From Druceiella hillmani (Eukaryota; Arthropoda; Insecta; Lepidoptera; Hepialidae): a stretch of 64,000 nt of DNA. A program made the position numbers and the translations under genes. Shown here in pieces: positions 2,235-56,640 of this stretch. Below the pieces are notes generated by a model. It saw nothing but the letters and a program-made list of their open reading frames with translations, searched no databases and was not told the origin of the DNA. Each line of letters opens with the position of its first letter. The first letter of the stretch is position 1. Where the stretch lies: assembly GCA_039881145.1 (NCBI GenBank), contig JAYKKI010000088.1, positions 5,974,001 to 6,038,000 of the forward strand, read 5' to 3'.

Positions 2235-5108
2235 TTACTGATCCGTCTGATGTGCATAAATTTCACGAAGCCTTTTCTTTATATCTGATCGAAACTGGGG
2301 ACGTGGACTTGCAAGGATGTCAAGCGTCAACATCTCTTTATTGTACAAGTCGCACAACCGCCGTAGCGGTGCTCTGACACCGGCGTTTGTTCGTGCATTA
2401 TTTACATGAAATAAGAGATGGCTACGAGTTAATTTGGACGTTCGAATCTTTATCTGACTTAATAGAGATGGGCAGTCATAATTACTTTGACAGATGTTGA
2501 ACATAATCATCAACTGTAATAATGAACGTCTGTGATAGATGGCATCACATTTATAATTATTAAGTAATATTTTATATGGTAATTTACCGCCACCTATACG
2601 ATGCTGAAGAGCGTTCAAAAATTTTTTTTGTATGTTCTCGATACTATCAGAATAAGTGGCATATAGTGGATTCCAGACAACAACACCGTATTCAAGTTGT
2701 GATCTTACAAGGGCATTGTACAAGGTTAAGTATGTTTCAGTATTTTTAAATACTTTGGCTGTTCTTAGTATGAAGCCAAGCATTCTATAGGCCTTAGATA
2801 TAATCTGCTCAACATGCAAACTAAAATGCAGTTTACTATCAAAAATGACACCAAGGTCACGCATGCTGTCAACTTTTTCGAGTGAATTCCCTCCTATTGC
2901 ATATTTAAAATTTATTTGTTTTTTCTTCTTTGTAAAAGAGATTTGTTTGCACTTCGAGTAACTTAAATGCAGTTTGTTCTCTTCACAGTAAACATGAAGT
3001 CTATCGAGATCAGCTTGCATATTCGAACAGTCATGTATGTCTTTTACAAGAGTAAATAGCTTTAGATCGTCTGCATACATTAGGAAATTACTATTTTTAA
3101 AACAGGTACTTATATAGTTAATAAATATAATAAATAAGAAAGGGCCTAATATAGATCCCTGTGGTACACCTGAAGTCACTTGGATATATGGTGATGAGAA
3201 CCCATTTACTTTAATTGCTTGCTGCCTATTAGTTAAATATGAAATAAACCATCTAAGCAAGTTGCCCCTGATACCGTTAAATGCTAGTTTTCGCATCAAT
3301 AATAAGTGATCAACCTTGTCAAATGCTTTCTTGAAATCTGTATATATCACGTCGACTTGCTGTCTGGAATCCAATGACTCGAACAAGTGCTGAGAGTGAA
3401 GTAGTAGGTTAGTGGTGGTAGATCTACCACGAACAAAGCCGTGTTGCTCGGGCATAATGTAATTATGTAGTATTGGATATACTCCTCCATGTACTAATCT
3501 CTCTAAAACTTTGGGAATTACTGATAAGATTGATATGGGTCTATAGTTAACTATGTTTTGTTTAGATCCATTTTTATGCACAGGTGTTATGTGCGCCTTT
3601 TTCCAACATGTAGGAAAAGTCCCATGTTTTACGCATTTATTAAACAAGAGAGTTAAAGGAATGCATATGGTATCTGCAGTATATTTGAGGAAGGCTGGTT
3701 CAATTATATCTGGTCCTGGGCCTTTGTTCAAGTCTAACGACCTAAGCATTTTTAAAACATCTGCAACCTCAAACGATATGGAAGATAAGCTGACGTTATT
3801 TAAATCACTAGTAGGCATGTTTTCAACGGTGAATTTGTTTATGTCTGGATTAGTGGGCTCGAAAGTTGACTGAAAGAACTCTGAGAACATTTGGCAAATT
3901 TCATTCGGATTATTACTGGCACTTTCGCTGGATGACATAGTTGATGGATAGCCATTTGTTTCATGTAGTGAAGAGATGTAAGCCCAGAATCCTTTGAGAT
4001 TTTTATTTATTATTTTCTCTGTGTTTGCAACATATGACTGACAACATTGCTTTGACATACGCTTGAAACAATATCGAAGCTTTGAAAATTCATTATAGGC
4101 GGAAATACTGCCATAAGTTTTCCATTTCAACCATGCTCGTTCTTTGTATTTAGAAAGCCGTTTGAGTTCACGAGTAAACCAGACAGGATACTTCGTGTTA
4201 CGGGTAGCCTTTTGTGGCACATAGGAGTCAATTAGATTGAAGATAAGGTCGCAAAATCTGGTCGCAGCACATTCCGTTGAGAGTTCCCTTAATTCATTAT
4301 CCCAGTCTATTTTACTTATCTCTTTATTTATTACCGCAAAGTCGGCCTTATAAAAGTTATATTTTTTGTTTGGTAAAACGGGCAGCATTATTTTAGGGCT
4401 ACACACAATGGTAAAAGTGAGAGCAGGATGGTTGCGATCTTCACTTAACATTGGGTCAGCTGCAGTAAGTATGCAGTCCATATTAGTAAGAACTAGGTCC
4501 AAGATTCTGTTTTTACAATTTTGTAAATAATTATATTGTTTAAGATTCATGAAAGATAATGCACTAAGAGCAATACACGTTATTTGAGACGTACATGTAT
4601 ATGACGGGATGCAGTATCCTTCTTGACGTTGCCAGGTAATTGAAGGTATATTGTAGTCACCTACAATACAAAACTTGCTATCGCTTTGTTCCGTATACAT
4701 TTTCTGTAAATTATTAAAATAGATTTCGTATTTATTAAAAGGTAGATCTGGTGGGAGATAGACTGCATTAAGGATTAGTTTCTGTTTACCCAAGGATAAA
4801 TTTAATATTATTTCTTCTATCTCAATACTTTCACAGTCCGTACGTCGCAGTCCCACATAGCCAGAACGTAAGGCTACCACCACTCCACCACCACTCTGTT
4901 TGTAACTCGTGTGAGCATCTCTATCTCTGCGATAGACTATATACCTACTATCAATAAATTCTGAATTGAAAATACTTGGTAATAGCCACGTTTCTACAAG
5001 CACGATTATATCATAGTCGTTTGCCAGTATATTTAGATATAATTCATGAAGTTTAGTTCTAATACCGCCACAATTCTGATAATAAATTGACAATTTGTCA
5101 TTTGTCAT
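2235..5108 (-). CDS. LINE ORF2: AP-endonuclease / reverse transcriptase
   Basis: An unbroken 957-residue frame. Residues 1 to about 235 form an apurinic-type endonuclease that nicks the target: QNCGG near the start, VETWL around 39, VGDYNIP around 148, and a late EDRNHPAL motif in place of the common SDH. A linker follows to about 470. The reverse transcriptase spans about 470-740, with motif A TDFKKAFDKVDH (about 588), SGVPQGSILGP (about 641) and the catalytic YADD (about 677). The C-terminal part to 957 holds the thumb-like region and the basic tail usual in LINEs. The protein would copy element RNA at a nicked chromosomal site. Length matches full ORF2 proteins of this group. The stop is TAA; the start is the first ATG after ORF1 ends, 242 bp away. 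No disabling change is visible. Confidence 0.95.
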   Translation of the reverse strand: MTNDKLSIYYQNCGGIRTKLHELYLNILANDYDIIVLVETWLLPSIFNSEFIDSRYIVYRRDRDAHTSYKQSGGGVVVALRSGYVGLRRTDCESIEIEEIILNLSLGKQKLILNAVYLPPDLPFNKYEIYFNNLQKMYTEQSDSKFCIVGDYNIPSITWQRQEGYCIPSYTCTSQITCIALSALSFMNLKQYNYLQNCKNRILDLVLTNMDCILTAADPMLSEDRNHPALTFTIVCSPKIMLPVLPNKKYNFYKADFAVINKEISKIDWDNELRELSTECAATRFCDLIFNLIDSYVPQKATRNTKYPVWFTRELKRLSKYKERAWLKWKTYGSISAYNEFSKLRYCFKRMSKQCCQSYVANTEKIINKNLKGFWAYISSLHETNGYPSTMSSSESASNNPNEICQMFSEFFQSTFEPTNPDINKFTVENMPTSDLNNVSLSSISFEVADVLKMLRSLDLNKGPGPDIIEPAFLKYTADTICIPLTLLFNKCVKHGTFPTCWKKAHITPVHKNGSKQNIVNYRPISILSVIPKVLERLVHGGVYPILHNYIMPEQHGFVRGRSTTTNLLLHSQHLFESLDSRQQVDVIYTDFKKAFDKVDHLLLMRKLAFNGIRGNLLRWFISYLTNRQQAIKVNGFSSPYIQVTSGVPQGSILGPFLFIIFINYISTCFKNSNFLMYADDLKLFTLVKDIHDCSNMQADLDRLHVYCEENKLHLSYSKCKQISFTKKKKQINFKYAIGGNSLEKVDSMRDLGVIFDSKLHFSLHVEQIISKAYRMLGFILRTAKVFKNTETYLTLYNALVRSQLEYGVVVWNPLYATYSDSIENIQKKFLNALQHRIGGGKLPYKILLNNYKCDAIYHRRSLLQLMIMFNICQSNYDCPSLLSQIKIRTSKLTRSHLLFHVNNARTNAGVRAPLRRLCDLYNKEMLTLDILASPRPQFRSDIKKRLREIYAHQTDQ

Positions 5109-5350
5109 TGCAAGATATTAATCTTATAAAGATAGAAACATAATTCATAATTTACGTAATATTGCACACTACTACTATTTAGAAGCAAGGTTCGGCGCAT
5201 GTGCAGCGGGTAATGCCAGTAAAAAGACCTTTCAAATACAGAACATAAATAACAGTTAATATAACGCCAACGAAAAATATGGAGGTATGCAGAAAAATTA
5301 CAGGAAATATTGACAATTCTTAATATAAATATAAGTATAGACAGAAATAG

Positions 5351-5576
5351 TCACATCTTAAAAATGTCATTTTCACATCTTATCTGCAGATACTTTGAGC
5401 CCGCCGTTTTACGAACATAAATTGTACCGTTTTTAATCCACACAAATTCATAGTTCTTTTCTAATTTGGCTTTTCTTACTTTTGCGTAAAGAATTTTGTT
5501 TCGTAGTGTGAGGTGCTCGTTAACGTAGACCCGCTGGGCAGCTCCGGCGATCTGTAACGACTCAGTGGTGAGTGAG
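5351..5576 (-). pseudogene. LINE ORF1, C-terminal fragment
   Basis: About 75 codons survive before the TGA stop at 5351-5353. The protein contains VYVNEHLT followed by a basic stretch and then FVWIKNGTIYVRK, which is the pattern at the end of ORF1 proteins of many insect LINEs and resembles the C-terminal domain of baculovirus FP25K. ORF1 protein normally binds element RNA and helps form the particle. Everything upstream is missing because the element is truncated here. An open frame runs on into flanking DNA to an ATG at 5602, but the first dozen residues are flank and not ORF1. Confidence 0.8.
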
Positions 5577-5581
5577 TGTAT
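5577..5581. repeat. Target-site duplication, LINE 5' side
   Basis: TGTAT at the truncated end of the LINE; it continues directly into sequence homologous to copy 3 (GTTGAGTTGATCAC). Confidence 0.8.
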
Positions 5582-7324
5582 GTTGAGTTGATCACAAGGC
5601 ATACGGTTACAGACGCAATACGCACTGCGGAGAACCGGGCATGATTCCTGTCCGTCGGTCGTTCGAAGTTGAGCTGATTTTCTGGTTGGTTATAAGAAAC
5701 TGATCTCATCACAATAAGTCCTCCATATATATCATTTGTGTATATTAAAGTATATAAATAAAAAATAAAGAAATATGAAGTACCTGCGTGTAGGAAACTA
5801 TTATCAGCTGATAGATTATTTGGGTGAATTAAATGTTTGAATATATCTATGAGAAAATAATTGGAATTTAAAAATTTGTAAGCCTGTAAAAAGAGCCCAA
5901 TTATAGGATGAAAATTGCTAAAAATTTGTTTGTAATTTAAATAACTTAAAAACTCTAGTGGTCAAAATACACGAGTGATGAAAATATAAACTTGAAGGAA
6001 TGTGTTAATTTGGAGAAGGGAAAGTACGCACAAGTACCCAGAGAATATCTGGAATATCCTACAAAATTAAAGCTATATAATATCTGGCATATCCTAATAA
6101 ATTAAAAACTAAAGATGTATTCTACTTTCGATACAAAGAGAAATTCCAAAATATATCTTGAACTTCCCGCCCTGAATACGCATACATATTTAGAATTTTT
6201 TAAGTTAATACGAAATGTACTATGATTTGAAAATATTTATTTCTTATTTGTTGGAAGATCCACCATATGCAATTATGTATTAGCATCCTTAAAATAGGAA
6301 AAATTGAACTGTCGTCCCTTTGAAATGTAGTGGAATAAATTACTAACCTTATCAGAGTTTATATGAACTTTGAAATGATAAATTCAGTTTCACTCTACTC
6401 CAAGGCTATGTCTCTACTTCTGTCACATAATTTCCGCAAGAATATTTTGTAACCCTGAATTTGTTTTACGTACGTATAGAAACCACCACAAAAGTTCCGT
6501 AAGCTCTTAAGGGCTTAAATATTCAGCAGCAAAATAAATTTTGATGCGACCATAAACAGTAATATTTCTCAAAAGCTGTAATACAATCATCGATTTAATT
6601 TTTAATACATTTGAAAAAAAGAAGGTCTTTAATTCCGTTGCTCTTTTTGGGTATCTCACTTCATATCTCCACCAATTTAATGAGGTTTTTTTTCTTTAGA
6701 AGGATATACTCCTAGTGTGGTCTCATGAAAATGGGCCCTGTTCGTGGATTTTGAAAGTAAACCGTAGAATTTCTCAACACTGAAGAGCACGAGTGCCGTT
6801 GACGTAGTTGAATTGTACAAGCGTAATGATAATTTACACGATAGCAAAAGTATAGTACGGTTTCATTTTATTTGTCTGCATATTAGCAAGAAAGTAATAA
6901 AAAAAAGGGTACCTAAGTACATAAATGTACATGCACAGGCAAAAAGCTATTTTGTGTTTGTTAACTTTTGTCTCCGATGATAATCAATAAATTTTCCGGA
7001 TTCTTTAGTTTTATTTGAAAGAATATCCCCCGTATAATCTCATAGAAACTTGTTTCAAATTTGACTGTGGGAATTGGAGTTATATGATAGATTCCACAAT
7101 TATGAACAGCATATGTACCGAGATCGAATTTGCATCATGTAAGACTAATGATCATATAATAATTAAACTCTTTGAACTTAAGACTAAGGGTGACACAGAT
7201 CGACCTATTAACAGAAATATGATACAATAATGGAGCCGGAAGATGTTCATAGCAATTTTTCACTGATGAGGAGTAAGCTCATCGAGTTTAGATTTGCTTA
7301 ACTAGTCTTCGGACGAAAGTAATC

Positions 7325-8911: not shown

Positions 8912-10133
8912 ATTAATATCTTTCTATTATATACTGTCTTATCCATTTCTTCTCTGTCATTCATGCTAATAATCCTAACATAACAACTTGTAGAAACGCT
9001 CTTTATGTAAACACATTACATTACCATGCGATTTCCTATATAATCGTTTTAGATCCGGTTTTTTAATTAGAAAAATGTTACCATTTAAAATGGGAGTGTA
9101 AATATAGGTATATATAGGTTTGTATTCATATATTAAACTGCATAGTTATTTCCAATACTCAGATCCCATATTTTCATAAAAATGTTATTTTAGAATTAGA
9201 CAATAGCTTCCTTTTTTTCTTGCGCGTGGTGCCATGGCTCAAAGATTATTAGTGATAAACCAATCAAAATAAACAATTTTCACTTGCAATGCAAGGATTG
9301 CCACGCGAACGTTGTCCGTATTTTTTTACTTTTTTTCTCTGTGTCCCAAAGTATATTCGAGATTTCCTATGCATAATATTGAGGTTAATGAAATATGCAA
9401 TCACTCAAAATACCTATTTTACCCCTTCTAAATCATATCTATTTCTATTATTCTATATCATTTTAAATTTGACATGTCTCCAAAATTTTTCATTATTTAC
9501 ATGTAAATATATGTATTATTTATTATCTGCAAATTATGACGAAAAATAGATTATAATCTAAATTAATTTATAGGCTACTTTTTATCCCGATATCTGGAAT
9601 CATTTCTAAGTGATACCATTCAAATTTTACGTTAGTTATTAGGTTCCTTCCCAAAAATCTAGTATTACTTGTAAGGAAAAATCTGTAATTTTATTTAAGA
9701 ACACTTTAGTTCATGCCATATGACCCGAATTCTCAAATCTGTGAGTGTTTCCCGTCAGGTGGGCAAAATTTTCTTTTTTTTCTAAATCGATCACCTGTTA
9801 AAACTAAACACGAAAGGACTGAAAAAATTTAAACTGAGATCAATTAAAGCCTTCATTAACACCTAGCTATATAGCCTTTACCATATCTCACGTGAATGAA
9901 ATGGTAGAAAGAAGTTAGCATGTTGAAAACATTTGAAAATTTTGATTTAATTTAGTTTCTGCTGTCTCCCTTTTGCGGTATAAACTTCTAAAATAATTCT
10001 CAGAGTTACAGCTTCCAATGCCATCCTCGCTTCTGTTCCCATCAGGTTAAAAATCTTAAAAATACTTAATTAGCAAAATCGTAAAGCAATAGGTTTTAAA
10101 AGCCGAAAATAAAAATAAATCTTAATTTAGCAA
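8912..10133. other. No recognisable gene; weak partial repeat
   Basis: AT-rich DNA. Bases 9645-9760 resemble 10310-10400 inside the left arm of the giant inverted repeat (shared AATCTGT, GAACACTTTA, ATATGACC/ATGTGACC, TCTCAAA), so an older diverged copy of the arm may lie here. Otherwise I see nothing. Confidence 0.4.
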
Positions 10134-12000
10134 TATTTTCTTCAAACGTTTTACTATTTAATATATTTCGTACACAAAAAATTTGTAAACTAATACAACA
10201 ACAAAAAATATTTTCTTCTGATTGATACAAAACTTTAAGGATAATTTTAATTTAACCTTTCAATTACACACTAATTTATTCAATATTGAGTCCTCTCTGA
10301 CGATTCTCGATTACCTAGTATTATTTGTATACAGAAATCTGTGAGTTCATTTTAGAACACTTTATCATATATCATGTGACCTGAACTCTCAAACCCAAGC
10401 TTTTTATCTCAATTCAGAGCGGTTTAGGAAGTACTAGCAATGACCTGCACATGTCAAAAATATCGTATATCAGAACCATTCACTAGGAGCAAATTCTTCA
10501 TCAAATTTTTTTACTTTATTGATGAACATTTTTGTGAATTAATATTGCTTGTTATATCGAACTTTTGTTATAAGCAACAATAGTTCAATATCGACGAGAT
10601 GATAAAAAATTATTCTGAAAAGTTGCCCAAAAAATTATCTTACTGAAAATTAAATACAGATAGAATAAATAGATATCTGGCGTTTGCTAAGAAATATGAA
10701 TAATGGACCTATAGTCAATGTAAATATACATTATTTTCTGACGAAATCAAGATAATTCTCATTTCATTGAATGGGAGACAATACGCAGGGCGTCAATTAA
10801 AAGAAGAAATGAATACAAAATTTATAAAACTTAAAACTAATTCAAATCATGCTTGATTCTCGATAATACAAAAAACATTACATGTAACCACATTACCCTG
10901 TGCTGAAGAAAGTCTTCCTGTTTTTTGGACATTTCAATACGATAACCATAAAAATGTACAAAGAAGTTCGCCGATACCTTCCGTGCAAAAGACTCCACGT
11001 AGGAATTAGATTGGCTGCAAACAACCCAGATCTACACCTTGTAAAGCACTTGCGGAACAAAATCAAGAAAAATTCGTAACTAACGCATTAGTGACATCAA
11101 CCAATTTTATAATACTCTTTCAAGAGCTTGGAACAAAATTTGCATACAAACACGTAGTAATTTGATATAATTTATGCCGTACCGATATTTATTAATTGTA
11201 TTTAACAAGTGCAACTACTCTGGTTACTAAATTGTACTCCAATAAATTGAATTCAGTCTAAACCAGCAATAAATATAGGTCATTAATTCAGTCAGTAATT
11301 TCAGTCTAAACCAGCAAATAATATTCTGTTTGTGATTGTTTATGCATGTCTCATGTTAATTATTTGTCTAGTAATCAATCAGCATGTAAGAGTGAATGTG
11401 TTTCAAGTTTAAATCAAATAAATACTACGATGGAGCTATTTTACTAATTAACTACATTTATATTAAGAAAATTAGTGCACTTATATGTCAAAATTAACAT
11501 AAGAATCAAAGTTCCGCAAGGATGTTACGTTAAGTTACGCAGACGAAAAAAATTACGTATTTAGTGCTAATGTCCCCATTTAGTTGATCATGATTTAAAA
11601 TAAATCATTTTAAAATCTCTACTAGATTTGCTACACTCAAAACTGGAAATGAAGGAAGAGGGAGTTTTTTTATGGTGTATTTTAAATCATTTTATGGCGA
11701 ATTTAATAAAATTTACTAGAGAAGTAAATTTCCAGAAATCATTTTACCAAAAACATGGCGATTAATGCTTCTTTCAGTATATTAACTATATCAATTGGAA
11801 AAATTTAGCCATTTAAGCTTACTGTCATGTGACTATACATATGGTTGTGAAGAATAATGATGGCTAGTTAAACTAAAGAAACATTACTTTTATCACAGCC
11901 TTTACCTGATAATTGTAATATTTGCATCATTAATATTGACGTTTCAAAAGTTATAAAAAAATTTCTGGGAAGTATGCATGGATAAAAATTTATTAATCAA

Positions 12001-12566
12001 TGTTAAAATGCAGTAAGTCAACGTGTCAAAAGATTTCTAGGCCACATTGTGCAAACCGCAAAAGTTCACGTGCACTTATCCAACCGAATGAATTAGTATC
12101 TTCTGGTTGCGAGGAAAAATTAGTTACGATTACCGCTTTTGATCAGTAACAAGCACTTTACTGGTGCAATCTATATATTTTTGCACGTCTGCTTTATTTT
12201 AAATAATGAGTTAAATTAGAATGTGCATTCGGAGTACGTCCACGTGCACTTTCAAAGATCACCTGACAGAATTTTTCTTATAGTAATGATTTATAGGTGA
12301 ACACAAGCGTGAATAAATATAATATATTTAATACATTTAATGTCAGTCACCTTCTGAACATATGGATGGACTTGCTATGAAAATTATTCAAATAAATAAA
12401 GAAATATGCACATTACAGGGTCGCTTTTTTGGAACCGGCCCACGTGGCTAAATATTTAAAAATAATATAAAGTTTAATTGCACAGATCTTTATAACGCTC
12501 TATTTCCTATGTATTATTTGCTATTTTATTCAAATAATACGTAGAAAAAAAAACAAACTGCATTTC
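12001..12566. other. Spacer of the giant inverted repeat, no gene
   Basis: Non-palindromic spacer. It contains two occurrences of CACGTGCACTT (near 12066 and 12241). No coding sequence is recognisable. Confidence 0.5.
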
Positions 12567-12684
12567 TTTGCTAATATACCACCTGAAGATATTGTAATAC
12601 AACGAAACCTAGGTCGTGGTAAAAAACTTAAAGAAAGTAGAAATAATACTACATCACGTAGTTTCATTTAATTGTGAATAATGA
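12567..12684 (+). repeat. Dispersed 118-bp repeat, copy a (carries ribozyme-like motif)
   Basis: It matches 14976-15093 almost base for base, starting at TTTGCTAATA and ending at AATTGTGAATAAT, with the conserved stretch CTTAAAGAAAGTAGAAATAA. It lies in the spacer of the giant inverted repeat and is not part of the arms. Confidence 0.85.
12577..12621 (+). ncRNA. Hammerhead-ribozyme-like motif, intact core
   Basis: Bases read in order: stem I strand TACCAC (12577-12582), core CTGAAGA (12583-12589), one extra T, stem II AUUGU-AAU-ACAAC (12591-12603, four of five pairs), core GAAA (12604-12607), stem III ACC-UA-GGU (12607-12614), the cleavage base C at 12615, then GTGGTA (12616-12621), which pairs perfectly with TACCAC. 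All three stems and both conserved core segments of a hammerhead are present in the right order. The very short stem III is the type described for Penelope-like elements and other retroelement hammerheads. The single extra T before stem II departs from the consensus. Activity is inferred, not shown. Confidence 0.55.
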
Positions 12685-14580
12685 ATTTCTACAACATTAA
12701 CGCCAAATATATTCAATATTCAATAGTTAATTTGTTTTATTCATGCATACTTCCCAGAAATTTTGTTATAACTTTTAAAACGTCAATATTAATGATGCAA
12801 ATATTAAAATTATCAGGTAAAGGATGTGATAAAAAAAATGTTTCTTTAGTTTAACTAGCCATCATTATTCTTCACAACCATATGTATAGTCACATGACAG
12901 TAAGCTTAAATGGCTAAATTTTTCCAATCGATATAGTTAATATACTGAAAGAAGCATTAATTGCCATGTTTTTAGTAAAATTAATTCTGGAAATTTACTT
13001 CCCTAGCAAAATTTTATTAAATTCGCCATAAAATGATTTAAAATACACCATAAAAAACACTCCCTCTTCCTTTATTTCCAGTTTTTAGTGTATCAAATCT
13101 AGTAGAGATTTTAAAATGATTTATTTTAAATCTTGATCAACTAAATGGCGACATTAGCACTAAATACGTAATTTTTTTTTTCTGCGTAACTTAACGCAAC
13201 ATATTTGCGGAACTTTGATTCTTATGTTAATTTTGACATATAACTACACTAATTTTCTTAATATAAATTTAGTTAATTAGTAAAATAGCTCCATCGTAGT
13301 ATTTATATGATTTAAACTTGAAATACATTCACTCTTACATGCTGATTGATTACTAGACAAATAATTAACATGACGCATGCATAAACAATTACAAACAGAA
13401 AACTTATATTTATTGCTGGTTTAAACTGAATTAAATTTATTGGAGTACAATTTAGTAACCAGAGTAGTTGCACTTGTTAAATACAATTAATAAATATCGG
13501 TACGGCATAGATTATATCAAATTACTACGTGTTTGTATGCAAATGTTGTTCCAAGCTCTTGAAAGAGTATTATACAATTGGTTGATGTCACTAATGCGTT
13601 AGTTACGACTTTTTCTTGATTTTGTGCCGCAAGTGCTTTACAAGGTGTAGATCGGGGTTGTTTGCAGCCAATCTAGTTCCTACGTGGAATCTTTTGCACG
13701 GAAAGTATTGGCGAACTTCTTTGTATATTTTTATGGTTATCGTATTGAAATATCCAAAAAACAGGAAGACATTCTTCAGCACAGGGTAATATGGTTACAT
13801 GTTATATTTTTTTGTATTATCGAGAATCAAGAATGATTTGAATTAGTTTTAAGTTTTATGAATTTTGTATTCATTTTTTCTTTTAAACGTCGCCTGCGTA
13901 CTGTCTCCCATTCAATGAAATGAGAATTATCTTGATTTCGTCAGAAAATAATGTATATTTACATTGATTATAGGTCCATTATTTATATTATTTAGCAAAC
14001 GCCAGATGTCTACTTATTCTATCTATATTCCATTTTTAGTAAGATAATTTTTTGGGCAACTTTTCAGAATAACTTTTTATCTTCTCGTCGGTATCGAACT
14101 ATTATTGCTAATACATAAGTTCAATACAATAAAATAACCAGCAATAATAATTCACAAAAATGTTCATCAATAAAGTTAAAAAAATTTGATGAAGAATTTG
14201 CTCCTACAGAATGTTTCTGATATCCGTTATTTTTGACATGTGCAGGTCATTGCTAGTACTTCCTAAACCGCTCTGAATTGAGATAAAAAGCTTGGGTTTG
14301 AGAGTTCAGGTCACATGATATGAGATAAAGTGTTTTAAAATGAACTCATAGATTTCTGTATACAAATAATACTAGGTAATCGAGAATGGTCAGAGAGGAC
14401 TCAATATTGAATAAATTACTGTGTAATTGAAAGGTTAAATTGAAATTATCCTTAAAGTTTTGTATCAATCAGAAAAAAAATTTTGTTGTTGTTGTTGTTG
14501 TATTAGTTTACAAATTGTTCTTGTACGAAATATATTAAATAGTAAAACGTTTGAAGAAAATTTTATAGAAAAGATATAAG

Positions 14581-14650: not shown

Positions 14651-14975
14651 TTTTTTTTTTGTTTTTTTTTGTTTTGTTTATATATGTGCGAATATTCTGC
14701 ACGGCATCGTGATCAAACACCGTACAGTGATAATATACCTACATATTAATTGAACATATTTTTAATGGAAAGACCATCAACATATGGCATTGCTAATGAA
14801 AACACACAGTTTTATAACTCACGGAAATATAATAAAACTTACACCGCTCCCCTACAATAAACTCATATAGCAGTGGGAAAGCAGTACATAAGCAGTAGGA
14901 AAACCCGCACAAACCGGGGTTCCCCTATTGTGTTTAAAACATATAAATGCTGTTGGATGTTCTTAAGAGCTAATA

Positions 14976-15093
14976 TTTGCTAATAGCCCACCTGAAGATG
15001 TAGTAATACAACAAAACCTAGGTCGTGTTTAAGAACTTAAAGAAAGTAGAAATAATACTACATCCCGTAGTTTCATTTAATTGTGAATAATAA
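14976..15093 (+). repeat. Dispersed 118-bp repeat, copy b
   Basis: Second copy of the block at 12567-12684, about 2.4 kb away and outside the inverted repeat. It is embedded in otherwise anonymous sequence, and no element ends could be defined. Confidence 0.85.
14987..15028 (+). ncRNA. Hammerhead-like motif, decayed copy
   Basis: Same layout as 12577-12621: CTGAAGA at 14992-14998, stem II 15000-15012 (GUAGU-AAU-ACAAC, one A-A mismatch), AAAA in place of GAAA at 15013-15016, stem III ACC-UA-GGU and cleavage base C at 15024. The G of GAAA, which is essential for hammerhead chemistry, is changed to A, and stem I has only three pairs. This copy should be inactive. The stem II mismatch differs from that of the other copy, and the two together imply a fully paired ancestor. 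Confidence 0.45.
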
Positions 15094-16640
15094 ATATAGT
15101 AATTTTTAATTTGTTTTTAGATATCGTTCGTCAATGACAGGAAACATAAGCTTTAACATGATGTTTAATTCATTAATATTAATAAAAAATTAAAGAAGAT
15201 ATGGCGTTGCCACAAAAAACAGGCATGAACATACCTGTTAGCAATGATACTTAATATAGTTTTTGAAGATCAATATGGACAATATTCCTCGAAACCTCAA
15301 ACCCTTATAAAAATACAAAATAACATCTTGTAATCAATGTCGCAACTACAGATAACAACTGCGGATATTACCTTGTTACCGATATGTTGACCGTATCATC
15401 TTTCTTTTACCAAACAAAACAAGAATCATTCCACTCATGCTCAAATGAGATCAGAAAAGTTCGATTAGTTATATACAACGAAAAAAGTAATTATACTTAT
15501 TTCGCGTCGATTTTAAATTCACCTGTATTTAAGTATAATTATATATAATTGTTTCATCGCCAATACTTTTTGCCTTTGAGAATGGTTTTATTTGTGTAAA
15601 ATAATTTTAAACCTAGACATGAATCTACGACGCCAAAAATTTTGTGAACAACCCTTCAATGTGCCCTAAAAGATCTTTCCCACGTTAATAAAAGGGAACA
15701 ACACGTCAAAGGTGTATCAAATACGCTTCTAGTTGCATGCTATTTATAACTTTAAGTATCAAAATTTAAAAGTAGCATTTTTTTCCTCCCGGAATTTACA
15801 AGAGAAATTCTAAATAGTTTGCAATCAGATAGAATTAAGTCGTACTATGTGTGGGACAAAAAGAAATTCTCAGTAAGTATAACAAAGGTAAATAAGTATT
15901 ATCAATATATTTTAAGTATTCTTGGCGAAAAAGTTCCGTCCTTCCATCGATCTGTGACAGTCGTAGGGTTTCCATATTGTTACACTGAGTTTTTGGATCA
16001 GTGCTCGTGTTATGACACATATAATGTGGGACTTACCTAGTTAAATGTTAACCGGAAATTATAATAACATGTTAGCATAGGATTGTTTCAGATTTGTCTC
16101 CATTCTACAAGCTCTCTTTGTTTTCTCAATGGAGACGCCCCGCTACTGGTACCAGCAGCGAAACGCGATGACCCCTTTGGGAAGGACTGAATTATTTATA
16201 TATGATTAAACTTCTACATGCACATTAGATTTTTTTAGCTCTTTCGCAATATGAGTTCGCCAATAAAACATTATATGTTATTATCAACGAATTCTATAGG
16301 AGGTATGAAATTATTTGTGAAATATATAAAAGTAGAGAAATTTGTTAGAGCAAGTGGATATTGCAGTTCTTATTCATTCATAATACCAAAAATAAATACT
16401 GATTGTTTAATAAAAAAAAAAGATTTTCCAAAACTTTTATTTTTTTTTGTATTTTCATAATCAGAATATATTATAACTCTTTTTATCGGCAAAAATATGA
16501 CATTATGAGGACGTTTTATCATTAAATTACTTTATAGGCATAGCAGTTTAATTATTTTATTAGCTCAACGATACCATTACTTTATGAGCGTTTTTATAAT
16601 ATTTAGCGGCTTCTTATCTTACTTAGTAAGACAGGGCGTG
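15094..16640. other. No recognisable gene
   Basis: AT-rich sequence with short open frames only (for example 15819-16040 and 16251-16460) that show no domain or composition signal. I see no RNA gene here. Confidence 0.4.
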
Positions 16641-22763: not shown

Positions 22764-22901
22764 TGTGATAATGTTGTATCAAAATATGTAATTAGTGAAT
22801 AGTAGCGCCATCTCTTATCGTTTTGTAGAAACTGTTTGTCTGTCTATGACAATTTGTAAAAATAAAAGACAGTCTATTGCGATAAAACGTGTTTTACTAG
22901 A
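22764..22901 (+). repeat. copia 5' LTR (138 bp)
   Basis: Begins TGTGATAATG and ends TTTTACTAGA. It matches the 3' LTR at 135 of 138 positions, all three differences being transitions. It contains an AATAAA at 22861-22866. The LTR is short for copia elements, and its last bases are GA in place of the usual CA; the end is fixed by the primer site that begins at 22902 and by the target duplication on the other side. Confidence 0.95.
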
Positions 22902-22912
22902 GGTTATGGGCG
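22902..22912 (+). other. Primer-binding site (internal initiator-Met tRNA type)
   Basis: GGTTATGGGCG directly follows the LTR. The first ten bases match the site used by Drosophila copia, which is primed by an internal cut fragment of initiator Met-tRNA and not by the tRNA 3' end. The match fades after ten bases. Confidence 0.8.
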
Positions 22913-22980
22913 TACTCTGCGCTAAATTATCAGTTATTTTCGTGAAAATAGATAATTTGTGAAAGTTATATCGCGGAAAC

Positions 22981-24765
22981 ATGACTGTGAACTATATTGC
23001 CAGTGTTCCTAAACTAAAAGGAAGAGAAAATTATGATGAGTGGAGCTTCGCGGCTGAAAATTTGTTGGTTCTTGAAGGAATGGACAAGTACATCAAGCCA
23101 ACGGCAAGTTTTGAAGTTAAGCCAGCAGACGACTCAAAAACGAAGGCAAAGCTAATATTGACTGTGGACCCATCGTTGTATGTGCATATTAAGAATACCA
23201 AGAGCGCAGCAGAATTATGGACTACATTGAAGACCATGTTTGATGACTCCGGTTTCTCACGCAAAATAACATTGCTGCGACATTTGATTTCTATTCGTCT
23301 AGATAATTGTGATTCAATGGCTACATATGTGACTCAAATGGTCGAGACAGCTCAACGGTTGAACAGCACAGGTTTTACAATCACCGATGAATGGGTGGGT
23401 TTATTATTATTAGCAGGTTTGTCAGATCGTTATTCTCCCATGATAATGGCAATTGAACATTCGGGCATTTCGATAACTGCAGATGTCATAAAGTCGAAAT
23501 TGCTCGACATGGAAGTGACCAGAGACAATGACGCAGGTGCTGCATTTGCAGCGCGAAATAATCATTCGTTCCATAAGTCAAAGAAAGGCAGTCCCGGTCC
23601 TTCAACGTCAGTATCAAACAAGAAAATGACAGCAGCAATGACAGATTCATCAAAAATAATTACACGCTACAAATGTAAAGAAAATGGTCATTATCGAAAT
23701 CAGTGCCCTTCATTGAAGAAAAACAATAGTAAATATATTTTTAATGTCGTTTTCCTGAATGGAAAGTTCAATAAAACTGAATGGTACGTGGATTCAGGCG
23801 CCAGCGCTCATATGACGGTGAACGAATCTTGGGTAAAAAACATGAACCGATCACCGTGTTTACCAGAAATAGTGGTTGCAAATGAATCTACAGTGCCAGT
23901 AGTTTGTTCCGGAGACGTTGACATTGTTTCAGAACTGAAATTTGAAATTACAGTGAAGGATGTGCTGTGCGTTCCTAGTTTGACAACAAATTTATTATCC
24001 GTGAGTGAACTGATTAAAAACGGAAATAATGTGATATTTAATGAAAAACACTGCTACATTCGAGACAAGAATGATGTTTTGATTGCTACTGCCGACCTGT
24101 CAGATGGTATTTATAAATTGAGGTTAGAAACACAGACTTATATGTTGGCCGCACCAGCAGTTAGTGGAAATCTGTGGCACAGAAGATTAGCACACCTAAA
24201 TAGTCAAGACATGAACAAGATGAGAAATATTGTGAATGGTTTGTCATATGAACAAAATTTTGACACAACGAAATATCAGTGTACAACTTGTTGCGAGGGA
24301 AAGCAAACAAGATTACCCTTTTCGCATGTTGGTGAGAAAAGCACAGAATTATTACAAAGAGTTCACACAGATATTTGTGGACCAATGGAAAACACGTCAT
24401 TGAATGGTGCTCGATATTTCATACTGTTTGTAGACGACTTCAGTCGGATGACTTTTATATACTTTATCAAGAATAAAAGTGAGGCGCTCAGCAAATTCAA
24501 AGACTTCCAAACACTGGTTGAGAATCAGTTGAATAAGAAAATAAAAATGATACGTTCAGATAATGGACTTGAATTTTGCAATAAGGAGTTTGATAATTAT
24601 TTGAAACAAAAGGGTATAATTCATCAAAAATCAAATAATTACACGCCTGAACAGAACGATTTATGTGAGCGAGCCAACCGTACAGTTGTGGAGAAGGCTA
24701 GATGTCTATTGTATGATGCAAAGCTGGATAAACGATTTTGGGCAGAGGCAGCTAACACTGCTGTC
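22981..24765 (+). pseudogene. copia gag-protease-integrase (first frame segment)
   Basis: Starts at the first ATG after the primer site. Residues 1 to about 190 are the gag capsid-like region (opening LKGRENYDEW). The zinc knuckle at 229-242 keeps C232, H237 and C242 but has Arg229 where the first Cys is expected (CGC against TGC). Protease DSGA is at 271-274. The pre-integrase histidine-cysteine region (WHRRLAHL from 399, then CTTC) is present, and the integrase keeps D464, D527 and E563 with the standard 35-residue spacing between the last two. Reading runs out of frame around 24763-24770 and meets TAG at 24778-24780; the matching continuation is one frame over. Confidence 0.95.
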
Positions 24766-26385
24766 TATTCTGAAGAATAGATCCGTTGCTTCAAGACTTC
24801 AGACAACTCCGTACGAATTGTGGTATGGGAAGAAACCAGATCTCAGTCACATCCGTTTATTTGGAAGTAAAGTCATGGTGCATATCCCCAAGGAACGTCG
24901 TTTGAAATGGGATAAGAAAGCTATGGAGCACATTTTAGTGGGATATAGTGAAGAGGTCAAGGGTTACCGGCTGTATAATCCTGCGAAGAAGAGTCTTCTT
25001 ATAAGTAGAGATGTCATCGTGATGGAAAATGAATCAGAGCTCAAAGAAACAGGCAACAAGTCAGCTATATGGATTCCTAACGAAGATACACTTGCAGATA
25101 ACATAGAAAAAGAGAGCACAGTTTCAGTGGGGGATAAATCGTCTCATATTTCAGAGACAGAAGACTGCCCATCAGATTATTCTTCAGTGTATGAGGAGAG
25201 TAATGAAACAATAACGGAAACTTCATCTCCAACCACAGACATATTAGACGCAGAAGTCCAGACGACATCAACCCCAGAACAGACACCAGAATTACCTGAA
25301 AAGCGTTCCAGGAAAGCAACTGAACGGTATGGTTTTACATGCCTTTCCAACACTGTTTCAGCATTAGAGGAGATAGTGTTCTCAGAGGCTCTTGCAGGGC
25401 CTGAGAGTGAACAGTGGAAGAATGCCATGGCCGACGAGCTGCAGTCTTTTGAGGACAGCGATGCATGGGAGCTCGTTGACAACCCCGGTGATGTGACAAT
25501 TGTGAAGTGCAGGTGGGTGCTTAACAAAAAGTTTGATGTGGACAATAATGTGCGGTTTCGGGCTAGATTGGTGGCAAAAGGTTTCTCGCAGAAATCTGGA
25601 ATTGACTATACGGACACGTTCTCTCCCGTGGTTAGACATTCAACGCTCAGATTATTGTTTGCTCTCAGTGTTAAGATGAATATGAGTATTGATCATTTGG
25701 ATGTTACTACAGCATTCTTAAACGGTTTTTTGAGAGAAACTATTTACATGTCATTACCTGAAGGTTTTATGAACAAAAGTGGGGGAAAGGTTTTAAAATT
25801 GAAAAGAGCAATCTATGGGTTAAAACAGTCTTCCCTTGCGTGGTACGACAGAGTTAAAGATTTACTATGTAAATTAAATTTTAAAAACAGTCAGTATCAG
25901 CCTTGTTTGTTCACAAAAACTAAAGGTGAAGCTAAAATTATTGTGGCCTTATATGTGGATGACCTTTTAATTTTTTCGAATTGTCCTGTTGAAAGTAAAA
26001 AATTAAAAGATACTTTAGGATCAGAATTTAAGCTAAAAGATTTAGGACCTGTAAGGCAATACTTAGGCTTGAGAATAAATGTTAGTAAAAATGTAATTAC
26101 TGTAGATCAGCAGCAGTATATTGATCAGCTATTAACTAGGTTCAATATGTTGGATTGTAAAATGCATAAAACACTAATAGAGTGTAAATTAAATTTAGAG
26201 AAACCTGATAAATGTGTACCTGATGTTCCATATCAGAAGTTAATTGGATCATTAATGTAGTTGGCAGTATTAACCAGGCCTGACATTTCCTTTTCTGTTA
26301 GCTATTTGAGCCAATTTAACAGTTGCTATGATCTTACACATTGGCATTATGCTAAACGCATTCTTAAATATTTGCAAGTACAAAA
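24766..26385 (+). pseudogene. copia integrase C-terminus and reverse transcriptase (second frame segment)
   Basis: Picks up the integrase tail (TPYELWYGKKPDLSHIRLFG), followed by a Ser/Thr/Glu-rich linker and the reverse transcriptase beginning at WVLNKKFDVD. Motif A is DVTTAFLNG, then IYGLKQSSLAWY, and the catalytic YVDD is at 25952-25963. A TAG at 26258-26260 interrupts IGSLM just before LAVLTRPDISFSV, where a Tyr codon is usual, so this is a single-base nonsense change. The frame then continues through YAKRILKYL to a second frameshift near 26385, followed by TAA. The polymerase core itself is uninterrupted. Confidence 0.94.
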
Positions 26386-26886
26386 ACTTACTGTTTAAAA
26401 TATTTTAAGGGCGGTAGCAAGTTAGAGGGCTTTGTAGATAGCGATTGGGCCAGCGATGCCATAGATAGGAAGTCCTACACGGGCTTTTGCTTTACTATGT
26501 CGGGATCTGCCATTTCATGGCAAAGCAGAAAGCAAAAGTCCGTATCGCTCTCTAGTACAGAGGCAGAATATACTGCTTTGTCAGAGGCGGCTCGCGAAGG
26601 AGTGTATTTGAGAAACCTGTTACATGAAATAACTGGTAACTTATCTGTAATACAGATCTATTGTGACAATCAGAGTGCTTTAAAGTTGTCATTGAGTAAC
26701 CAAAGTCACAACAGATCAAAACACATAGATGTGAGATTCCATTATGTAAGAGATGTTGTTAAAAATAAATATATTAAAGTTATGTACTTGTGTAGTGAGG
26801 AAATGCCTGCCGATTTACTTACCAAAGGACTGTGTACTATTAAGCATTATAAGTTTATGTGTAAATTGGGAATTGTACTTAAATAA
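26386..26886 (+). pseudogene. copia RNase H (third frame segment)
   Basis: Continues as LKYFKGGSKLEGFVDSDWASD, then SYTGFCF, LSSTEAEYTALSEA, YCDNQSA and RSKHIDVRFHYVRD, the standard copia RNase H landmarks with the catalytic Asp and Glu positions kept. It is back in the same frame as the first segment, so the two frameshifts compensate in phase. TAA ends the protein 28 bp before the 3' LTR. Confidence 0.93.
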
Positions 26887-26905
26887 AATTGTTGTTTATT
26901 TTAAT

Positions 26906-26914
26906 AAGTGGGGG
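26906..26914 (+). other. Polypurine tract
   Basis: AAGTGGGGG abuts the first base of the 3' LTR; this is the expected primer for plus-strand synthesis. Confidence 0.85.
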
Positions 26915-27052
26915 TGTGATAATGTTGTATCAAAATATGTAATTAGTGAATAGTGGCGCCATCTCTTATCGTTTTGTAGAAACTGTTTGTCTGTCTATGA
27001 CAATTTGCAAAAATAAAAGACAGTCTATTGCGATAAAACATGTTTTACTAGA
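26915..27052 (+). repeat. copia 3' LTR (138 bp)
   Basis: Same length and ends as the 5' LTR, with three transitions between them. Followed directly by the AAAAC target duplication at 27053-27057. Confidence 0.95.
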
Positions 27053-39060: not shown

Positions 39061-39122
39061 CGTGGTTGAGGACGTGGATTTTCTAGTCACAGAGGGCGTG
39101 GATAATATCACACAAAAATGTC

Positions 39123-39659
39123 TTGGAGGACGAGGAAATCATCATCATATTAGTAGTTGACTTTCACAGTCAAGGTAATAATTTCCATACTACTATAGTA
39201 AGCAATATGTACACAACTAGTGAAAATGACAAGCCAAATGAATGTCAAATAAAATGGTTACTTGATTGTGGATGTACAGACCATATTATCAATAGTGATG
39301 AGTACTTTGATACCTGCAAGGTATTAAAGACACTTATAAAAGTTAAAATTGGTGATAGAACATTATAAGAAGCTACAAAATTTGGTAGTATTAAAACGTG
39401 TTTCCCATTCTATGGACCAAAATCTGAAGTGACGTTGATAAAAGTTTTTAATGTGAAAGAAATGAAAGTAAACTTGATGAGTTACGCGAAAATTACAGAC
39501 AAACATTCAATTGTCTCAAGAGGAGGAGTTTCAAAAATGTGCAATACAAACGGATTTCTAAAAAAGATTATAGCAATTGTAATTAAGGACGAGATAATAG
39601 GACTATATAAGGTGAAAAGCTACATGAATAAAAAAACATTGCAAGCGAACATAAGTTAA
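39123..39659 (+). pseudogene. Old copia protease remnant
   Basis: KWLLDCGCTDHIIN (within 39255-39300) is the aspartic-protease active site with Cys in place of the usual Ser of DSG. A stop at 39366-39368 splits it from the later protease part (39429-39659, VKEMKVNLMSYAKI), which leads into the pre-integrase region. Confidence 0.75.
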
Positions 39660-52401: not shown

Positions 52402-53061
52402 ATGACTACAAGGGACACATCCCGAACAGCTGCTAAAGCTTAAGTAGATGAGAATATTCAAATTAATGCAATGTTTCAGTTCGTGAAACCTTTCGATGGG
52501 TCACGAGATAAACTCAACTCTTTTCTAACAAACTGCAATAACGCTTAAACCCTAGCCAATAAATCGCAAAGAATATCTTATTATTTTTTTCTGTCCAACA
52601 AGAAAAAATCTGAACTCTCCGGACGAATTGCAGCCATGCAAGATATAGCTCTTCCTACATTTTTACTAGGTTTAACACCCAGAATTTTAAATCTCGTCCG
52701 CTGCAAAGATCCATGTACCTTAAATAAAGCCATTAATTTTGCCATCTTAAAGGAGAAAATACCAAAATTGCTGTACAAATATAATCCACCAGTTTCCTCT
52801 ACCCGCATTAATTTGATGTCACCGCATCCAGTTCGTAAATTTGATTCTTACAGGCCTTCTGTAAATAATGTCGAATCTCAACATAATTATAATGCGTTCT
52901 GTCGACATTCTAAAAACAACGGTCATACAATCGATATGTGTAAAAAACGCGAATATAATAACAATCGACTAAAAGCAAAGACAACAATTACTCTGACGAC
53001 ACGCAATCTGAACATAATATCTACTATGACTTTACTCAACATCCATCTCAAGACCATTTAA
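52402..53061 (+). pseudogene. gypsy/errantivirus gag remnant
   Basis: From ATG at 52402 one frame runs to 53061 with stops at 52441 and 52546. Parts FQFVKPFDGSRDKLNSFLTN and IAAMQDIALPTFLLGL are capsid-like; FCRHSKNNGHTIDMC (near 52895-52945) is a zinc knuckle whose second Cys has become Ser. At about 220 codons it is roughly half the usual gag length. Confidence 0.75.
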
Positions 53062-53139
53062 ACATGTAACGGGCTCACGGCGGTGTCTCGTGAGACCCCA
53101 ATCAAATTCAAAGCATAGATTTCAGCATAATGACATCTC

Positions 53140-53290
53140 TTCTGTATCCAAGCACCACACGGGTAACTAGTCCCAAGCACGTGTCCTTTATTCTAAATCC
53201 AAGACCACACGGTTAACCAGCCCCAAACACGTGTCCCATATTCTATATTCAAGGTCGACACGGGTAACCAGCCCCAAATAAGAGCTTCAT
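53140..53290 (+). repeat. Three imperfect 50-bp tandem units
   Basis: Units begin at 53140 (TTCTGTATCC), 53191 (TTCTAAATCC) and 53241 (TTCTATATTC). Each holds a CACACGG(G)TTAACCAGCCCCAA-type core and the first two also hold CACGTGTCC. They lie between gag and protease and probably arose after the element decayed. Confidence 0.85.
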
Positions 53291-53418
53291 CTTCCAAATC
53301 AGACTTTCAAGCTAATAGACATTCTCAGTTTAGTATTTCAAACGTTGAATCGAATCCGAGTTTAATAAATCAGGACGAGTTTATTTATGAAATATCCTGT
53401 GATCCTACCAAAATATCT

Positions 53419-53961
53419 TTGCCTCGTATAGTTGTTAACGCATCAATTTCTAACAAACCCCTACGTCTACTTGTAGATACCGGCTTTTCTATCCATCTTA
53501 TGAAAAAGTATTTAATTCAATCTTATTCTAATATAAAACTGAGAAACCAGACATTTAAAATAAAGGGTATTGGCAATAGCAAAGACACAGTACCAACTCC
53601 CAGCAACTTTGATATTGACGCTTCTAATTATGCAATTTCAACTATCTTGTCACAAGGTGCAATCGACAAAGATCATCCTACCGCATATGCATCCAGAACA
53701 ATTAATAAAAGTGAAATTTTGTTGAGCGTATCTGAAAAGGGACCACTCGCTACAGTTTTCCGTTGCAAAACTTTCAGACCTTATATTTTTGGCAGAAAAT
53801 TTAGTATTGTCAGCGATAATCAACCTTTAAAGTGGTTGTTTAATCATACCAATCCAAGCAGTAAGTTACAAAGATGGCGTCTTCAACTCAAGGAATACGA
53901 GTACGAAATCATACATCGCAAAGGTAAACTAAATTCAGCAGCAGATGCACTTTTTTGTTAA
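53419..53961 (+). pseudogene. Protease joined in frame to RNase H (reverse transcriptase lost)
   Basis: A single open frame of 180 codons. Residues 1 to about 57 are an aspartic protease with LVDTG (Asp at residue 20). At about 53590 the text jumps directly to the gypsy RNase H (FDIDASNYAISTILSQ, then AYASRTINKSE, VSDNQPLKWLF and HRKGKLNSAADAL). The entire reverse transcriptase that should lie between them, including its YVDD, is gone, yet the frame stays open across the junction. The likely cause is an internal deletion of about 1 kb. It probably has no function; an open frame of this length can persist by chance in AT-poorer sequence. Confidence 0.85.
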
Positions 53962-54639
53962 CCCTATAAACACTGAAACAAAAGATTCTGAATTGCCTCT
54001 TACATCCTTCAATCAAAACACCGATTCCAACGACCCTTCCATCACAGACACCATTACAAACTCCACGTCCTCAACGTTCTCCTAGCAACTACGATGCTAT
54101 ATATACAAACATTTCAGTTAGCCTATTCCTTCCACACGAATTATTTGAAAATACTTATCCAAAATTCGTGAAATCCTCTAGCGACCCCCAATACAACACA
54201 AAAATTGTTGAACACAATGACAGTCTTTTGAAAAGTGATCATAAAATAATCATAATTCCCACATCACTTGATCTAGATGAAAGTATGCCCTGTATACAAT
54301 AAGTTTTAGATAATCCCTCTCAATCCGAAATATTTATTCAGTCTGAAAGAACACTCCATTTATTTAAACCTCATGCTTTCAACAAACAAACTTATTATTT
54401 TCTATTTTTCAGGGTTCACCATTTTGGTGATTGTTCATATGCCGACATATTCACAACACAAAAAACCTTTCGATACGAACTTGTAGTATGTTCAGATAAC
54501 CTTAAAGAACTAAGCATCACAGATTCAAAATCCCATTTGATCCACACTCTTACATAAAGAAATGATGGGCCACTGATTTCATAACACTGAAATAGATATA
54601 CACATCTATCGAAATAAAATATATTACACTACCTTAAAA

Positions 54640-55664
54640 TAAATTCCAAAAATCTTCAGAGAAAACTACGACATCTCTATCGCAGGACATCTTAGCACAA
54701 ATCGAATGTATGACAGAATTCGTGAACAATTTTATTGGAAAAAGATGCATAGTGACATCGAAAATTATATTAAATCTTGCTCATCATGCCAAACTAACAA
54801 AAGCCCTACGCAAAATTACCCGAGCTCCCATGCGAATCACAAGCACGTCCACTACCCCATTTGAGCAAATATCGTTACATATAGTTGGTCCACTTCCTGA
54901 ATCCGGTTCCGATAAACTGAAATGTATATTAACCCTGCAAGATGATCTAACAAAATATTCTATTGCCATACCAAACACGACAGAAGAAAAAACAAGCGAG
55001 TGCCTTATTCATTTCATATCCCTATCTGGGATTCCAAAATCCATCCTTACTGACTAAAGTACTAATTTCACTGCAGACTTGTTCAAAAAACATGTCCCTT
55101 TTTAAACATTAAACAAATTTGGTCCTCTCCTTATCATTCCCAAATTCAAGGTGCCCTGGAAGTCACTCAACCCTTAAATAGTAACTTAAATCCCATGTTT
55201 CCCAAAATCATGACAACTGGGTCGAATATGTATATACAGCAATACTATCATATATAACCGCCATACATTCCACTACAAGATATTTTCCTTATGAGCTTCT
55301 ATTTAGCCATAAACCATTCATCCCCAATTCCATTTATAACACTGTTGTAGATGTTACTTATTCAGATTACATAAAAATGCTCCAACATCGTCTCAAGTTT
55401 GCGAAGAAAAAGGCTCTGGAAAGTATCATAAAATCTAAAAAAGCATCTAAAATATATCATGACTCACATACACGTTCTATTAAATACAAAATTGGAGACT
55501 ATGTTTATGTCAAAAACCATCTTCGACTACGTAAGGCTCTTTCACCAATTTCGAAAGGATCATACAAAATTGTCAAAATCAATGGTAGAAAGACCCTGAC
55601 TTTACTTATTAATAGACGCCATATTACTCATCAGTCATCGCCATATTACTCATTTTTTTCATAA
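54640..55664 (+). pseudogene. gypsy/errantivirus integrase remnant
   Basis: Zinc-binding part with NRMYDRIREQFYWKK and CSSC near 54780; catalytic part from 54830 (PFEQISLHIVGPLP), where the first catalytic Asp has become His; second Asp in SILTD followed at once by TAA (55057); Glu kept in GALE near 55155 in another frame. The C-terminal part (55377-55664) has IGDYVYVKNHLRLRKALSPI, the region after the core in this group. Several stops and frame changes separate these pieces. Confidence 0.85.
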
Positions 55665-55839
55665 TTTAAAAATATGTAAATAAGCATATAGTTTTAATTT
55701 CTTTCATTATTTAATTACAGTATCCTTTCATGGGCACAGGATAAATTCATTCAACCCACTGCAAAAAATCCTGGTATGGATTGGGATCCTTGAAATTAAT
55801 TGACTGATATTTAAGGTTAATAATTCCAATAGAAACTTC

Positions 55840-56640
55840 ATTTATTAAACCATATTTAGAAAATATATACAGCATTATGGAAGCATCCAAGTACTTATGT
55901 AAACAATCTAATTCTTACAGTGATATAGAATGTCATGACATGTTTCAATCCTTATCGACGCGCTACTACGATGTAGTTAGAGATTTTGACTTAACATCCT
56001 ATTTGATTTCAAAACATTCAAAAAGAACAGCATGGTTCGGTGGTGTCGGTGCCATCTCAAACATTTATTCGGAACTATGTATCAAAAAGATGCTTTAAGG
56101 TACAGCAACGTTATTCAAAATTTTGAAAAGGATCAGACTCAACTTGCAAATTTAATGGAAGATAATATACTCATAACTACACATCAATGCTTTCATCCCT
56201 TAAGGACGTAATTAATGAAATAAATATTAATAAACAAACTTTGAACAGCGCTGTTGAAAATCTAACTATATATTTTAAAAATTTAACCATCTTATCAGAC
56301 AACTTACTTGTAAGATCTAAAATATCGGAATTGTTACATAATAATGAATTTTCAATATCGTTTTTCATAAAAGAAACCGAACAGTTAAAGTATCGGCTAA
56401 ACCTTCAGATATCGTTACAGAGTCTCTTCCGTTTCCTGGGCCTAGAATTAGAACTTTCCTTACATAAATTTCACTTTTTCGTGCAGTTTGGTCTCATCCG
56501 GGGCTGTTATATATTCTATACGTATGGGATTTGCCTTACGTTTGTCTTACGTTGCACCTCTGGCCAACAACAACTGGGCTTCACCAAGTCAGCATTTCAA
56601 GCAGTTTCCAAGCTCCTATTTTCGTTATTTGCGCACTAGT
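55840..56640 (+). pseudogene. env-like remnant of the errantivirus
   Basis: 55877-56098 is an open piece with a Cys-bearing region and a SKRTAWFGG segment, which corresponds in position to the basic cleavage site and glycine-rich start of the membrane-anchored subunit in errantivirus F-type envelope proteins. After a stop at 56096-56098 and a frame change, 56187-56400 has a heptad-like pattern expected for the following helical region. Further frame changes and stops follow, and the anchor cannot be placed with confidence. It is broken in several places and cannot give a working protein. Assignment rests on position after integrase and on pattern. Confidence 0.6.

Follow-up and report, generated by a model that had tools for sequence, protein, structure and literature searches.

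The DNA analysed here is a 64,000-nucleotide stretch from Druceiella hillmani (the window; C88:5974001-6038000 of the 2.59-Gb assembly), in which positions 12577–12621 resemble a hammerhead ribozyme. This locus raises the question of whether the resemblance reflects a genuine ribozyme motif and, if so, what kind of element carries it and how that element is inserted.

The hammerhead motif in the window

The motif lies on the forward strand and reads TACCAC-CTGAAGA-T-ATTGT-AAT-ACAAC-GAAA-CCTAGG-TC-GTGGTA, with C at 12615, exactly as claimed in a sequence-only reading of this DNA. It has the type I layout (CUGANGA, GAAA, UH and three stems, open at stem I), and cleavage is predicted after C12615. 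The 5′ strand of stem I (12577–12582) faces its partner at 12616–12621, and the core segment CTGAAGA (12583–12589) follows; these parts are seen both in the sequence and in the Rfam alignment, where every displayed pair is standard. An extra U (12590) at the boundary of the core and stem II precedes stem II with its AAU loop (12591–12603), the second core segment GAAA (12604–12607) and the stem III palindrome CCTAGG (12608–12613), which extends to ACCTAGGT with its flanking pair.

Two irregularities of this motif were already apparent from the window. The extra U was initially raised as a caution and is indeed present, but it is a family trait common to the genome copies. A viroid hammerhead is known to have an extra nucleotide at the same place in the core. 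Likewise, the single mismatch in stem II stands for the window copy, but A12591 opposite C12603 is private to it; the family has G at 12591, and stem II is therefore a perfect 5-bp helix with G-C at its base. An early clue to this was present in the window itself, where a second copy of the repeat (copy 2, described below) has G at the place of the mismatched A in the first (copy 1).

The motif was also assessed against chance and against covariance models. A descriptor requiring 6 pairs in stem I, at least 4 in stem II and at least 2 in stem III has one match in the window and 3 matches across 400 windows of 64 kb simulated with a first-order Markov model, both strands being counted. The covariance search proposed for both copies had a divided outcome, as Rfam RF00163 aligns to copy 1 from end to end but scores 19.2 bits where the gathering score is 34, with stem II treated as an insert, while copy 2 gave no Rfam hammerhead match. 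The E-value for copy 1 is 0.0083 (61 bases against 4227 families), which rescales to about 0.002 expected per 64 kb for that single family. The window hammerhead was not listed in whole-window Rfam scans, including one at the gathering score, in which no family was listed at all. A family copy with a perfect stem II (L012) scores 19.0 bits, also under the threshold of 34, and a search of 20 family loci (L066-L122) at E ≤ 1 gave no hammerhead match. The 89 matches that these loci did give at E ≤ 1 are nearly all to microRNA-hairpin models on the inverted arms of the repeat, and none scores above its own gathering score.

Folding calculations bear on whether one or two strands would be needed. 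The minimum-energy fold of the monomer differs from the hammerhead and does not surpass the folds of shuffled sequences (z = −0.22). The two-strand minimum-energy structure (−23.6 kcal/mol) forms both helices that a dimer should have between its strands, with a different pairing in stem II, and the canonical hammerhead dimer evaluates to −21.8 kcal/mol. Action as a dimer would fit both the palindrome ACCTAGGT and the two-strand fold. Taken on the window alone, the case for a ribozyme is only suggestive.

Copies of the motif in the genome

Judged from the sequences, the motif is genuine, and it is the copies elsewhere in the genome that decide the case. The family version of the 39-mer at 12583–12621 has 95,545 matches in the assembly with at most 3 mismatches (47,849 forward and 47,696 reverse), versus 0 for the reversed pattern in the same genome under the same limit. 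This number counts motifs, and insertions are fewer because most sampled elements have two arms. Exact motif patterns have no match in IMG/VR or in GTDB genomes; a looser pattern with CCTAGG matches four IMG/VR contigs (L001-L004). Thirty family loci agree on CTGAAGA-T-GTTGT-AAT-ACAAC-GAAA-CCTAGG-TC-GTGG, scattered changes aside.

Two sets of loci were used to follow the individual parts of the motif. The first (L005-L034) was drawn with a query built on window-specific words, for which 40 of 834 candidates were scored; this yielded 61 matches, and 30 loci were read. The second (L035-L124) takes the exact 39-mer matches that come first on contig C1, with 90 loci for 94 of 100 listed places. 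Since the latter loci were chosen by the exact 39-mer, one arm is perfect in each, and this choice inflates the counts for their 135 units, 119 of which have an intact core and 103 of which have all 12 listed pairs intact. The 91 partner arms are changed at 2 of 284 bases in GAAA, 10 of 671 in stem II and 11 of 466 in CUGAAGA. Stem III, at 18 of 435 (4.1%), is above the core and above the average, and outer regions range from 2.4 to 4.8%. At this low divergence, the pattern of core conservation in the partner arms lends weak support to a functional ribozyme. No paired compensatory changes in the stems were counted among the genome copies, which differ too little.

It is very unlikely that there is no ribozyme motif here, with a repeat resembling one by accident or a stretch of coding exon mistaken for one. 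The sub-threshold Rfam scores of 19.2 and 19.0 bits are in keeping with that explanation, as is an open frame (12471–12668) that runs across the motif. However, the frame has no relatives in Pfam, in PDB or among short proteins of similar length, and copy 2 has a stop in it; the coding exon was rejected on the lack of relatives. Chance, which the sequence-only reading had considered improbable, is rejected on the perfect stem II of the family, as the hammerhead reading requires, and on the genome count of 95,545 against 0. Moreover, the host of the motif is a Penelope-like element, a class in whose pseudo-LTRs type I hammerheads are known (PMC11167929).

The repeat unit and its head-to-head arms

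The extent of the repeat was determined by comparing units at 120 loci (L005-L124). These form 133 clusters, or 132 after dropping the duplicate L040; L039 and L040 are one place, and both were counted for subfamily markers and target duplications while L040 was dropped from the counts of arrangements and junctions. A 118-bp block had been taken as the repeat unit, but the real unit is larger, at 155 nt. Copy 1 occupies 12565–12718 on the forward strand (family positions 2–155) and is 97% identical to the family unit, representing a right arm with a tail; its left arm was not found. The hammerhead corresponds to unit positions 14–58, with the predicted cut after unit position 52 (window 12615/12616). 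The tail (12681–12718, forward strand) contains an ATG and 12 open codons and is probably the start of the Penelope frame. This frame, MNFYKINAKYIQ, is exact in 52 of 106 right arms, and the string ATGAATTTC is missing in 21 of 106. An apparently significant target duplication of the 118-bp block (ATTTCT/ATAT, 7 of 20000 random pairs) was refuted, as the 3′ end of the genome copies corresponds to 12718.

The arms of the repeat are predominantly arranged head to head (86 of the 132 clusters), with 45 single-arm clusters. The left arm is about 117 nt long, its outer end falling at 104–128 in 98 of 103 arms (median 117), and the right arm is 155 nt long with the tail, its outer end lying at 150 or beyond in 104 of 116 arms (median 155). 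Most sampled copies contain no reading frame between the arms. The sequence-only reading had pointed to tandem (dimer) copies as a feature to look for; direct neighbours are found in a single cluster (L058).

This arrangement bears directly on the idea that the family is a metazoan (non-LTR) retrozyme, in which a tandem unit is excised by its hammerheads, circularised and reverse transcribed. The repeat does recall the retrozymes of PMC7229834 in being short and A+T-rich, in carrying a type I hammerhead and in its very large number of copies. Nevertheless, such an origin is scarcely credible, as direct neighbours occur in only 1 of 132 clusters, the unit has its ends at positions 1 and 155 rather than at the cleavage site, and it is joined to a Penelope gene.

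In the window, copy 1 sits within the spacer of a giant inverted repeat, in agreement with the sequence-only reading. The arms (10132–11987 and 12735–14564) are about 1.85 kb long, with most segments 92–95% complementary, and the spacer of about 747 nt places the end of copy 1 about 16 bp from the right arm. Reading frames of the inverted repeat that were tried against Pfam gave no match. Copy 2 (14973–15095, forward strand) spans unit positions 1–123 without the tail and is 92% identical to copy 1 over 120 nt (14976–15095). Its hammerhead core is broken: the G of GAAA is gone, as is the outer half of stem I.

The window also holds a number of other repeats. A Copia element (22764–27052) has 138-bp LTRs that are 98% alike and two overlapping frames, and the best named relatives of its protein are moth, butterfly and beetle proteins. 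A LINE frame on the reverse strand (2235–5689, 957 aa) encodes endonuclease-like and RVT_1 domains, and a frame with Baculo_FP_2nd lies before it. Related repeat segments of about 80–89% identity occur at 0.4–9 kb, 46–52 kb and 57–62.5 kb, the last one inverted, and broken Ty3-like and Copia-like frames lie at 52549–56636 and 39087–39656.

Link to a Penelope-like element

The element behind the repeat was traced through its protein. A GIY-YIG search gave 2 matches among the best 150 of 1572 candidates. One of these, at a host-like locus (L125, C125-type), has no unit match beyond chance; the other, at C73 (L126/L127; 34.5 bits), lies between an inverted and a direct unit. The C73 protein in turn matched all 150 of the candidates scored (the best 150 of 6151), with open frames of up to 864 aa. 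The 864-aa frame at C137 begins inside the element's own inverted repeat, and its last 669 aa contain RVT_1 (54 bits) followed by GIY-YIG (21.3 bits, just under the cut-off of 22.6). About 550 nt downstream of this gene is a unit with 150 of 153 bases identical, and copy 1 is 94.9% identical over 156 bases to the unit after this gene (L129).

Because it adjoins genes for reverse transcriptase and GIY-YIG endonuclease, the unit is read as the pseudo-LTR of a Penelope-like element, which bears out the earlier proposal of a Penelope-type hammerhead with a short stem III by placing such an element in the same genome. Among the 120 sampled loci, 5 have the Penelope protein next to the unit, and the evidence comes from partial copies of the element. 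Very probably, then, an endonuclease-bearing Penelope-like element carries this hammerhead in its pseudo-LTR; this degree of confidence covers the Penelope identity, the priming route being less sure. At further places (for example C131:1307085-1309655 and C1:49482088-49487199), copies of the Penelope endonuclease occur as −/+ neighbours 2–5 kb apart, suggesting that longer elements also form head-to-head pairs.

Two claims about the window need qualification in this light. It had been stated that no Penelope polymerase is seen nearby, and a tblastn search of the window with the Penelope protein gave no match. However, a Penelope remnant is present at 14815–15095. The part directly upstream of copy 2 (14815–14972, forward strand) corresponds to a Penelope 3′ region, identified by its matches to C73, L128 and L129: 14815–14962 is 72% identical to the stretch between the arms at C73 (E = 1e-18), 14886–15095 is 87.6% identical to L129, and 14815–14865 is 82% identical to L128. 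Since the stretch preceding the unit matches window 14815–14972, copy 2 terminates a longer fragment of a Penelope element. Similarly, the suggestion of a non-autonomous family agrees with the lack of an ORF between the arms in most sampled copies, and such a family is best understood as pairs of pseudo-LTRs in head-to-head orientation, devoid of ORFs and moved by the Penelope enzyme.

Junctions and the route of insertion

The ends and junctions of the two-arm elements offer insight into how they are inserted. Target-site duplications of at least 8 bp flank 63 of 83 two-arm elements (mode 12), versus 7.8% with shuffled flanks. The inner junctions vary, with 54 distinct coordinate combinations among 59 two-arm elements; both arms start at positions 1–3 in 26 of these, and the shorter arm starts at 4–20 in 11 and beyond 20 in 22. 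Short fillers are carried at many arm junctions, and in several elements (L017, L021 and others) the arms meet at the palindrome AGCAAAGATCTTTGCT. Subfamily markers agree between the arms of one element in 53 of 54 cases at position 72 and in 52 of 55 at position 64; at positions 14 and 15, the arms agree in 32 of 39 and 34 of 38 cases. The shared markers imply that both arms derive from one template, or one arm from the other.

It is tentatively proposed, at something just short of an even chance, that each head-to-head copy goes back to a single Penelope RNA, with priming from the two sides of a break that has a 12-bp stagger and with strand-specific start sites near 117–119 and near 155. 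The Penelope protein would bind the pseudo-LTR RNA and cut an A+T-rich target with a 12-bp stagger. Reverse transcription would then start at two internal sites of the RNA, near 117–119 from one target end and near 155 from the other, and both cDNAs would extend to the 5′ end of the RNA and be joined in the middle of the element, leaving an ORF-less head-to-head pair. The order of these steps is likewise putative.

The main rival to two-end priming keeps the same element but has the inverted arm made by fold-back, one strand priming itself in place of priming from both target ends. The subfamily markers shared by the arms and the palindrome at the junction in many copies would be consistent with fold-back, which PMC3846280 puts forward for the Penelope elements of rotifers, with an antisense template. 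Fold-back alone does not, however, predict the fixed left end (104–128 in 98 of 103 arms) with an abutting target duplication, and the short fillers at many junctions resemble end joining. It is accordingly rated as possible, if rather doubtful.

Under two-end priming, the hammerhead would cut after unit position 52, perhaps best between two copies paired through the palindromic stem III, and insertions would mostly derive from RNA not cut there. A cleavage footprint was sought in the inner ends: none lies at position 53 and 4 of 22 fall within 48–58 (p = 0.22). A wider list that includes window-biased loci and L066 has 6 of 33 within 48–58, with no excess at the cleavage site. The sampled junctions suggest that RNA uncut at the hammerhead may be the usual template.

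Comparison with known systems and implications

Several features of this family have counterparts among described Penelope-like elements. In PMC3846280, such elements have an inverted pseudo-LTR 37 bp shorter than its partner, a 31-bp tail, palindromes and duplications of 8–10 bp. The Adineta vaga Pen families in that report share with the present family the head-to-head pseudo-LTRs, one shorter by the tail length, the junction palindrome, the short target duplications, and the gene for reverse transcriptase and GIY-YIG. Most sampled copies here are gene-less, however, the duplications are 12 rather than 8–10 bp, and the copy number is far larger.

That Penelope-like elements can carry type I hammerheads is already known (PMC11167929). 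The same study reports that the Poseidon element PAc of Anolis contains a hammerhead and has two internal start sites, with both strands extended in vitro and uncut RNA as the main template. The hammerhead within the pseudo-LTR and the two start sites bounding the tail, putative in the present family, are common to both. In contrast, the PAc cut site lies inside the reading frame while the predicted cut here lies about 65 nt before the putative ATG, and PAc copies are direct tandems rather than head to head.

Penelope-like elements are also reported to have minimal type I hammerheads that act as dimers (Cervera and De la Pena 2014; Lunse et al. 2017; both cited in PMC7761336), and the very short, palindromic, dimer-compatible stem III of the present motif is like theirs. 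The extra U between the core and stem II and the six bases of stem III set it apart. Repeats with hammerheads have also been reported from mosquitoes (PMC3088659), and the metazoan retrozymes, with 126,247 motifs in axolotl (PMC7229834), are likewise small type I hammerhead repeats of high copy number; tandem direct units and circular RNAs belong to the retrozymes. Among the titles and abstracts listed by a literature search that covered few subscription papers, none deals with a gene-less family of head-to-head pseudo-LTRs this large.

If two-site, strand-specific priming is correct, this would be a gene-less family that resembles SINEs and forms hairpins, with as many as about 95,000 hammerhead motifs in a single genome, and it would serve as a natural insertion assay for Penelope elements. 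The inverted arms, if transcribed, would form long hairpins. The many natural insertion products have fixed outer ends, variable inner junctions and readable duplications, and two-site priming and cleavage footprints can therefore be tested by counting. The use of uncut RNA as the usual template, as the junctions suggest, would agree with the in vitro results for PAc (PMC11167929). The family thus bears on the insertion route of Penelope-like elements and on the reason for which they retain a hammerhead.
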